Shown here: in pieces, positions 54,741-57,428 of the stretch | How positions within the stretch are numbered: the stretch's first letter is position 1 | How the letters are laid out: every line of letters begins with the position of its first letter | DNA from: Bacteroidota bacterium | GTDB lineage: Bacteria; Bacteroidota; Bacteroidia; Cytophagales; Cyclobacteriaceae | DNA: 64,000 nucleotides | Direction of reading: 5' to 3' | Assembly: GCA_016178785.1 (NCBI GenBank) | Contig: JACOSO010000023.1 | Location: 62,001 to 126,000 of the forward strand | Made by a program: the position numbers and the translations under genes | The notes under the pieces: generated by a model | Database searches by the model: none | What the model was told of the DNA's origin: nothing | What the model saw: the letters and a program-made list of their open reading frames with translations, nothing else

Positions 54741-57428
54741 ATGAAAAATAGGAGTGCATACATACTTGGTTTTCAGGAAATCAATAAAGCAATGCTTGCG
54801 GTGGTTGGTGGTAAAGGCGCCAACCTGGGGGAACTATCCGGGATTGAGGGTGTACAAGTGCCTGAGGGCTTTTGCATTACTACGGAAGCATATAAAGAAA
54901 TTGTTGAGAGCAGCGAAGAGCTTAATTCGCTGCTGGATCAGTTAGCCGTTCTAAAGGCAAATAATAGGAAAGGTATTAGTGAAACCAGTGCAAAAATCCG
55001 AAAGGTGATTGAAGAAATAGCGATTCCGAAAGGCATCGATCATGAGATCACTCAACGCCATGAACAAATGGGCGAAAGAAATGCCTATGCAGTGCGTTCC
55101 AGCGCCACAGCGGAGGATCTTCCCACAGCCTCTTTTGCTGGGCAGCAGGATACGTATTTGAACATTATCGGAAAGGAGGCAATCCTAAAGCATATCAGCA
55201 AGTGCTGGGCTTCTCTATTTACAGATCGTGCAGTAATCTACCGAATGCAAAATGCCTGCTTGCAGGACGGGCAGGAGTTTGATCACCGTAAAATACATTT
55301 GTCTGTCGTTATTCAGAAAATGATTTTTCCAGATGTAGCAGGGATTATGTTTACAGCAGACCCAGTCAGCTCAAACAGAAGGGTACTCTCGATTGACGCC
55401 AGCTTCGGACTTGGTGAGGCATTGGTTTCCGGACTTGTAAATGCTGATAATTATAAAGTGCGTGATGGCAAGGTTATCGATAAGAAAATTTCCACCAAGA
55501 AGCTCGCTATTTACGCCTTAAAAGATGGCGGTACGAAAGAACAGGAGATTGAGTATGAGAGGCAGAACAAGCAAGCGTTGACAGATGAACAGATTTTACA
55601 GCTTGAGCGCATAGGCAGAAAAATCGAAGAACATTTTGGCTGCCCCCAGGACATTGAATGGTGCTTGGTTGATGATACCCGCCTGCCGGACGGGCAGGTA
55701 TTTTATATTGTACAGAGCCGGCCCATCACTACTGTATATCCGATCCCCGAAGTGAATGATCAGGAAAATCACGTCTATGTATCTGTCGGTCATCAACAAA
55801 TGATGACCGATGCCATGAAACCATTGGGATTGTCTTTTTTTCTGCTAACCACCCCGGCACTTATGCGGACTGCTGGTGGCAGGTTATTTGTTGATGTTAC
55901 ACCTATGCTGGGGTCACCTGCCGGCAGAGAAACTTTAGTAAATGTTCTGGGAAAATCCGATCCGGTCATAAAAGACGCTCTTACGACTATCATAGAGCGG
56001 GGAGATTTTATAAAATCGTTATCGGATGATAAAAAAGAATCAGGTCCCGATAAAAGAAATGAAGCTGTATCGCTTCCGAATTATCAAACACTAAACGACT
56101 ACGATCCAACAATTGTTTCTGATCTGATCAGGAGTAGTCAAACTTCGATAGAAGCGTTAAAACAAAACATCCAAACGACATCAGGGTCGAATCTGTTTGA
56201 TTTTATCCTGCAAGATATTCAGCAATCAAATAAGACCCGTTCTGAGTCACCAAGTTTTGGTGTTATTATGACTGGTATGAATGCTGCATCATGGATCAAT
56301 GAAAAAATGAACGAGTGGTTGGGTGAAAAAAATGCAGCAGACACGCTTTCTCAATCTGTACCAAATAATATTACTTCGGAAATGGGTCTGGCACTATTGG
56401 ATGTAGCAGATGTGATCCGTCCTTATCCGGAAGTAGTTGATTATTTACAACGAGTAAAAGACGATAACTTTTTGAATGAACTGGTTAAGTTTGATGGTGG
56501 AAAGAAAGTTCAGGATGCTATCTACTCTTTTCTCAACAAATATGGAATGCGATGTTCCGGAGAAATTGATATTACTAAAACCCGTTGGAGCGAAAAACCA
56601 ACTACACTTGTCCCCATGATTCTTAATAATATCAAAAGCTTTGAGCCTAATGCCGGCAAGCGGAAATTTGAGCAAGGGCGAGAGGAAGCTTTGAAAAAAG
56701 AACAAGAGTTACTAGATCGATTGAAGCAATTACCGGATGGTGAACAAAAAGCCAAAGAAACAAAACGAATGATCGACCTGGTCCGGAATTTTGCCGGTTA
56801 TCGTGAATATCCAAAATACGGCATTGTTAATCGCTACTTCGTTTATAAGCAGGCTTTACTGAAAGAAGCCGAGCAACTCGTACAAGCCAAACTCATTCAC
56901 GAAAAAGAAGATATATACTATCTCACTTTTGAAGAACTTCGAGAAGCAGTACGTCTGCCAGCCGGCCAGGCCGGCACAAATAAATTGGATTACCAGATTA
57001 TCAAAAATCGAAAAGACGAACACAAAATAAATGAAAAACTAAACCCGCCACGAGTTATCACATCTGACGGTGAAATTATTAGAGGTGCGTACAAACGAGA
57101 AAATCTCCCAGTCGAAGCTCTTGTAGGTCTGGCAGTTTCTTCCGGAATTATAGAGGGACGGGCACGTGTCATCTTAAGCATGGAAGATGCTGATATAGAA
57201 GATGGAGATATATTAGTCACCTCCTTTACTGATCCTAGTTGGACACCCTTGTTTGTATCCATAAAAGGCCTGGTCACCGAAGTTGGTGGACTGATGACGC
57301 ATGGAGCCGTTATCGCCCGTGAATATGGTTTGCCCGCAGTTGTGGGAGTAGAAAATGCTACCAAACTGATAAAAGATAGGCAACGAATTCGCGTGCATGG
57401 AACAGAAGGGTATGTTGAAATACTATAA
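54741..57428 (+). CDS. rph: Rifampicin phosphotransferase-like PEP-synthase-family enzyme
   Basis: About 895 aa from ATG 54741 ([16 protein letters not shown]); an ATG at 54690 adds 17 residues. An N-terminal PEP/pyruvate-binding ATP-grasp domain ([39 protein letters not shown]) is followed by a long middle domain. A C-terminal swivelling phosphohistidine domain reads [20 protein letters not shown]. This order, with the His domain last and no PEP-binding TIM barrel, is that of Rph, which inactivates rifamycins with ATP, not PpsA. Three short palindromic inserts lie in frame (55255-55275, 55682-55698, 56955-56976), adding residues such as LPDGQ and LPAGQAG. Real substrate unproven. Confidence 0.82.
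55255..55275. repeat. In-frame palindromic insert 1 in the rph-like gene
   Basis: CCTGCTTGCAGGACGGGCAG plus a final G, encoding ACLQDGQE between RMQN and FDHRK, where relatives as I recall them read on directly. The ends CCTGC and GGCAGG are complementary. Confidence 0.6.
55682..55698. repeat. In-frame palindromic insert 2 in the rph-like gene
   Basis: CCTGCCGGACGGGCAGG, able to fold with CCTGCC against GGCAGG, encoding RLPDGQ between LVDDT and [11 protein letters not shown]-rich against an AT-rich host gene. Confidence 0.65.
56955..56976. repeat. In-frame palindromic insert 3 in the rph-like gene
   Basis: CTGCCAGCCGGCCAGGCCGG plus CA, encoding LPAGQAG between EELREAVR and TNKLDYQ. TGCC/GGCA and GCCGG/CCGGC arms pair. 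The insert stands out by base composition. Confidence 0.65.

Follow-up and report, generated by a model that had tools for sequence, protein, structure and literature searches.

The closest described systems to the repeat analysed here are the RPE families of Rickettsia and the REPs. According to the available text of PMC3733652, RPE-4 and RPE-6 are CGTC-tagged REPs, with stems of 8-9 bp and loops of 4-5 nt given for the CGTC REPs, and that portion of the source reports no dedicated transposase for them. Hairpin recognition by IS200/IS605-type enzymes is described in the available part of PMC6006769.

The window (the whole stretch of 64,000 nucleotides that was analysed) contains an rph gene with three short palindromic inserts, which are very probably copies of a non-autonomous, REP-like mobile hairpin element of 21 bp. 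Like the RPEs, as far as the available text of PMC3733652 describes them, the element is a palindromic repeat lying in frame within genes of likely working proteins. Like the CGTC REPs of that text, it has a stem (8 bp) and a loop (5 nt) within the 8-9 and 4-5 range and no dedicated transposase, judging by what the text reports and by the 59 Y1 loci scanned here. It differs from the RPEs in its sequence, in the absence of CGTC beside the 21-mer and in the presence of one 21-mer across many phyla. It is also shorter than RPE-1 and the dimers, as given in the same part of PMC3733652. With the GTAG REP/RAYT systems, in the available description (PMC3733652), it shares the character of short non-autonomous hairpin repeats, an uneven copy number and intragenic cases, but it has neither the GTAG tag nor a RAYT directly bordered by the repeat (59 loci), and in its own genome it lies mostly within ORFs and not between genes. 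MITEs are likewise non-autonomous inverted-repeat DNA; the element is far below the 70-300 bp given for them in the available text of PMC3733652, and is without target-site duplication in the two genes compared. The Bacteroidetes Y1-flanking structures of subclass 2.6, as available in PMC6006769, belong to the same phylum and are small palindromes copied elsewhere; here, in contrast, other palindromes surround the Y1 genes and the 21-mer sits inside one of them.

We looked for both tags within 6 nt of 126 copies. CGTC was found to the left of 4 and to the right of 2, and its complement GACG to the left of 2; GTAG was found to the left of 2, and its complement CTAC to the right of 2. The initial annotation had compared the inserts with RPEs, of a different sequence and in a Bacteroidota gene. 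The comparison stands, the CGTC tag of RPE-4 and RPE-6 being absent, and the element extends beyond Bacteroidota, with other phyla among the at least 117 stretches reported below. The element acts like RPEs and intragenic REPs, with neither tag beside it and no transposase of the GTAG-REP kind at its borders, and the lack of the CGTC tag places it outside the Rickettsia RPE families. We found no description of it at the level of listings of the open-access literature, subscription papers being outside the scope of that search. To our knowledge, it would rank among the smallest mobile DNA units that keep an exact sequence over many phyla.

Three inserts in a rifampin phosphotransferase gene

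The product of the host gene scores 1443 bits against NF041857 RIF_Ptrans_rph (cut-off 999) and 1151 bits against the solved Listeria Rph 5hv1, in an alignment that begins at residue 22; the Met at residue 18 may be the true start. The gene and its inserts are listed in Table 1.

Table 1. The rph gene and its three element copies in the window (mismatches are to the consensus; fold gives the number of shuffles that fold equally well)
Feature	Position	Strand	Sequence	Mismatches	Reading	Base before / after	Fold	Basis
rph, rifampin phosphotransferase, 912 aa	54690..57428	+			intact open frame			NF041857 and Listeria Rph alignment
Element copy 1	55255..55275	+	CCTGCTTGCAGGACGGGCAGG	3	phase 1; (A)CLQDGQ(E)	G / A	8-bp stem, 5-nt loop; 15/200	
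Element copy 2	55678..55698	+	CCCGCCTGCCGGACGGGCAGG	2	phase 1; (T)RLPDGQ(V)	A / T	6-bp stem; 5/200	
Element copy 3	56954..56974	+	TCTGCCAGCCGGCCAGGCCGG	4 (most decayed)	phase 2; (R)LPAGQAG(T)	G / C	31/200	

All three palindromic stretches that had been noticed in this gene are present. The span first given for copy 1 is retained, that of copy 2 (55682-55698) proved to be its inner 17 bp, and that of copy 3 (56955-56976) is replaced by the one in Table 1. Each insert is exactly 21 bp, or seven codons, and keeps the reading frame. Opposite each of them the Listeria Rph alignment shows a clean gap of 7 residues, the other gaps being of 1-3 residues, and the window protein shares with the 120 listed homologues (8000 were scored) a core of 871 residues that is without the inserts; they do interrupt conserved Rph segments, as had been claimed. 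Their supposed location in surface loops is consistent with a model of the host protein (mean pLDDT 55.5, poor, and taken for local secondary structure only), which would place residues 189-195, 330-336 and 756-762 between secondary-structure elements or at their edges. The argument that three in one gene is not chance also holds: the window has 10 matches to CCTGCCNGNCAGGNAGG at up to 3 mismatches, versus 1.92 expected (100 shuffles, none of which reached 10), and 9 of the 10 fall at the three insert sites. Copy 2 is identical to a variant present three times in each of the genomes G018 and G043, in counts that take many sites on both strands.

The same residues in distant homologues had been named as evidence against a repeat, and they occur, if only patchily. 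Of 121 proteins, the window's own included, 7 carry an insert of at least 4 residues at the first site, 13 at the second and 6 at the third, some alike and some of other types; a quick tree, many of whose forks are weak, asks for no fewer than 5, 10 and 4 changes, respectively. Taking five Rph loop sites together, the counts are 7, 13, 12, 6 and 6 rows, requiring on that tree at least 5, 10, 9, 6 and 4 changes. Many of the inserts are of other types (PDSYR, YAKASVG), and from these alignments Rph is a frequent insertion target. Other short loop inserts (PDSYR and kin, YAKASVGE, PVRPGQPGG) were seen in P0017, P0027, P0067, P0087, P0065 and P0073; PDSYR, known here from protein alone, would fit the palindrome CCCGATAGCTATCGGG when codons are read back from the peptide.

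Across the 57 further genomes of the genus no close rph orthologue was found, the remaining matches being distant relatives. The gene may thus have arrived by horizontal transfer, and for the same reason its empty sites rest on proteins, with none in DNA.

Copies in the same genome

The genome to which the window belongs (4.47 Mb, 100 contigs) carries 8 copies of CTGCCNGNCNGGCAG, versus 0 for the reversed control, and the element is thus a repeat; the absence of other copies, which had been put forward as a ground for rejecting this, is excluded. All 8 are in frame, in host frames of 193-945 codons from stop to stop. With up to 2 mismatches CCTGCCNGNCNGGCAGG gives 41 matches per strand versus 2, which collapse to 26 distinct sites, some copies having been counted in two registers. 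Among these, one is no element copy but a tRNA-Asp gene. At up to 1 mismatch there are 17 distinct sites, this gene included, leaving 16 element copies with rph copy 2 among them. Twelve of these encode an LPxGQ-type peptide within a long frame (one reads PPAGQAG, and one, in L020, may sit upstream of the true start), another is in a 219-codon frame in a different phase, and three have no frame above 114 codons. The tRNA-Asp gene (L026, 1441-1515) fits the degenerate palindrome pattern at 1 mismatch, a possible false match in each genome.

We scanned ten host ORFs against Pfam, seven from this genome and three from others. The former comprise a penicillin amidase, RimP, a GH130 protein, an E1 dehydrogenase, HSP90, a CusB/HlyD protein and a MeaB-type GTPase; the latter an ATPase with RadA domains, a protein with a tRNA ligase anticodon domain and a glutamate-type dehydrogenase. 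The insert falls within a Pfam domain in 9 of the 10, and at the domain edge in the CusB/HlyD protein.

Fold and borders of the element

The consensus, CCTGCCTGCCGGACAGGCAGG, is a sharply bounded 21-bp hairpin. It folds at -8.9 kcal/mol, and only 1 of 200 shuffles is equally good (the folding set consisted of six stretches, the one from L228 being without its element). We tabulated flanks and reading phases for 131 exact copies, all from viral contigs or from genomes other than this one. In 123 of them a purine stands at -1, and A is rare at +1 (10 of 131), no base exceeding half at any other flanking position.

An early favourite was to read the element as a 17-nt hairpin followed by a CAGG tail. 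CAGG comes next on 15 of 150 sides of YCCCG..CGGGR hairpins, 6 of these 15 being one orthologous site. A paired change at positions 3 and 15, from a scan that also took in windows offset by 4 bp, comes down to a single variant family; this reading was weakened because that variant folds best through another stem. A wider class of CAGG-ending hairpins is suggested by these data, and we keep it as a possibility.

Empty sites and recurring inserts

For each gene, 58 genomes of the genus were searched and the best 30 orthologues aligned. In the E1 dehydrogenase gene the 21-bp insert is present in 3 of the 30, at the identical nucleotide, and 27 are empty. In the MeaB/IcmF-like gene a 21-bp insert occupies one position in 8 of the 30; one more has a shorter insert and 21 are empty. 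Of the eight inserts, one closely matches the 21-mer and one is a decayed copy; the others are palindromes of the CCCCG..CGGGG-CAGG type (five genomes) and TCCCG..CGGGA-CAGG (one). No target-site duplication was found at the empty or filled sites of either gene. The earlier view, that of a selfish palindrome which proteins tolerate, is supported: the genome has numerous copies, orthologues of these two other host genes show empty sites exact to 21 bp, all six reading phases are in use, copies also lie outside long ORFs, and the low-confidence model puts the Rph inserts at loops.

On the gene tree, a single clade is rejected for the 5 rows with the second MeaB/IcmF palindrome (AU 1.9e-52). The three filled rows of the E1 dehydrogenase need 3 changes, and here a single clade is not firmly rejected (AU 0.09). 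The same spot thus took up inserts, or lost them precisely, on more than one occasion, barring short recombination tracts; exchange between filled and empty alleles could give the same picture of repeated gain or loss. The MeaB/IcmF-like site (L225-L254, after FKD) has taken different 21-bp palindromic inserts within the genus.

A comparable case comes from an Omnitrophota aldehyde dehydrogenase, in which exactly the 7 insert residues are missing in a 91%-identical relative; among the 120 listed relatives, an insert is found there only in the query's own record.

Distribution over phyla and viruses

In 257 Gb of GTDB genomes at least 117 stretches, several from single genomes, contain the exact 21-mer, and they span 15 named phylum-level groups; 0.015-0.7 would be expected by chance. 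The listed stretches comprise 68 from Bacteroidota, 20 from Omnitrophota, 17 from 13 other named groups and 12 without a phylum. Record titles mark those outside Bacteroidota as MAGs or bins, some of which could be misassigned; the Omnitrophota aldehyde dehydrogenase with the insert, however, has relatives that are all Omnitrophica where the organism is named. At up to 1 mismatch the 21-mer was found in 22 of 395 sampled Bacteroidota genomes, our own included (control, 0). The pattern matches in 84 of 96 relatives, a figure that includes single matches of the type CCTGCCTGTCACGCAGG; as this is the tRNA-Asp gene in our genome, a copy number of 1 means little.

Ten viral stretches hold the 21-mer, two of them pieces of one contig. 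Three exact copies lie on the 35-kb viral contig IMGVR_UViG_3300044606_000228 (L188, L194), which also encodes matches to phage transposase and transposition-protein families of Mu-like kind and is a possible carrier between hosts.

Search for a mobilising enzyme

Y1 genes (PF01797) are present in 49 of 58 genomes of the genus. We fetched those of carrier genomes and scanned them with their flanks (59 loci of ~3.2 kb each, some overlapping). At up to 4 mismatches, 6 of the 59 hold an element copy, which exceeds a rough estimate of ~1 (188 kb at ~5 copies per Mb) and is not fully explained. Copies lie within 600 bp of the Y1 gene in L206, L211, L064 and L173, of which L064 and L173 were fetched on account of their copy, and near one in L358; in L369 a copy lies ~0.9 kb before the gene and a 20-bp relative ~1.5 kb after it. 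At none of the 59 loci is the element directly at both ends of the Y1 gene, which speaks against a resident transposase bordered by the element. Across the 58 genomes, copy number correlates weakly with the number of Y1 genes (rho 0.22, p 0.10), on raw matches that include register doubles and the tRNA. A Y1 match is absent from G018, which has 30 pattern matches, and from G278, which also has copies.

Many Y1 genes bear other palindromes (e.g. CGACCCCGAAGGGGTCG, CCGTCCCTACGGGACGG), and L199, L210, L214 and L219 have still others at both ends. In L037 (1396-2290; G000 C85:301567-304911) a Y1 gene lies amid 17-bp palindromes of the RACCCCGAAGGGGTY type, near the longer TTGTTGGTCAGCGACCAACAA. 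At ~1160-1200 of L358 a copy of the 21-mer lies within a palindrome of the Y1-flanking kind, an insert in an insert.

Origin of the inserts

Could the LPxGQ loops themselves be functional and conserved, the palindrome merely following from codon choice? The LPAGQAG phase is indeed over-represented: it accounts for 37 of the 88 exact copies whose frame is 150 codons or longer, though some such frames may be spurious in GC-rich genomes, and for 22 of 32 rows in four sister genomes (30 loci out of 111 matches, one site twice). Against this, the 88 copies use all six phases with the identical 21-mer, of the 131 exact copies 10 have a frame of 100-149 codons and 33 have none that reaches 100, and the insert is patchy among homologues at a site, with sister proteins lacking it. 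A protein-level motif is thus scarcely credible; the six phases and the copies outside long ORFs argue that the element spreads as DNA. Selection for a harmless phase would explain the bias.

Insertion of a short hairpin without duplication points to single-strand transposition by enzymes of the Y1-HUH class, the movers of REPs and of IS200/IS605. IS200/IS605-type enzymes insert hairpins precisely and without target-site duplication. The insertions seen here resemble that reaction, and together with the frequency of Y1 genes in the genus and the copies near them this favours the classical REP/RAYT arrangement, in which a resident Y1 transposase (TnpA-REP) moves the palindrome as its own flanking repeat. 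Yet other palindromes lie at many Y1 genes, one of them with the 21-mer inserted into it, no locus has the element directly at both ends, and copies occur in genomes without a Y1 match, with a weak overall correlation; we regard this arrangement as rather doubtful. Less likely still is that no dedicated enzyme exists, and that stable hairpin fragments of single-stranded DNA, released by phages, plasmids or lysed cells, are taken up and pasted in by illegitimate repair, the filled alleles then spreading by homologous recombination. The lack of a transposase tied to the element, its patchy spread across phyla, its weak target preference and its three exact copies on a viral contig with Mu-like transposition genes would all fit, but the constant 21-bp boundaries with a strong purine preference at -1, and the occurrence of palindromic inserts at a single nucleotide across separate lineages, suggest a defined reaction.

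We favour a mobile REP-like hairpin, while noting that no mobilising enzyme has been tied to it and that rph copy 3 is strongly decayed. The element would insert as a whole unit, without target-site duplication and nearly always after a purine, and would move as a single-stranded DNA hairpin with the help of a trans-acting enzyme, which most likely belongs to the Y1-HUH class. As 21 bp are seven codons, a copy would survive selection where it falls in a surface loop and its phase is harmless, adding no more than a short soluble peptide (LPAGQAG, RLPDGQ); the remaining insertions would be purged or lie between genes. The inserts of Rph would then be near-neutral passengers. One might speculate further, and only tentatively, that a novel class of minimal 21-bp hairpin transposons is common to Bacteroidota, Omnitrophota, Patescibacteria and others, that their stems can be exchanged while the CAGG/CCTG end stays constant, that an enzyme other than the resident Y1 inserts and removes them precisely, that phages ferry them across phyla, and that peptides are added repeatedly at the same enzyme loops.

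If the favoured reading is true, core proteins (HSP90, RimP, a RadA-like ATPase, E1 dehydrogenase) have in the element a natural supplier of 7-residue insertions. With orthologues at hand in both filled and empty form, the entry of REP/RPE-type palindromes into genes would be directly testable, and the pattern would account for odd peptides in the predicted proteins of uncultured bacteria.

Other palindromes and loop inserts

Several palindromes of the window stand apart from the three inserts. Within rph, CTGCCGGCAG at 55918-55927 is no insert and encodes part of SPAGRE, which is common to homologues. Two further GC-rich palindromes, not assigned to the family, lie at 24850-24861 and 33344-33357, and a terminator-like one at 61022. 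In the Omnitrophota aldehyde dehydrogenases (P0166-P0240), a second loop, at core positions 361-366, carries varied inserts of 3-14 residues (PNGPGHSLLSDQV, KGAVPFKGTVP), possibly from another repeat family.
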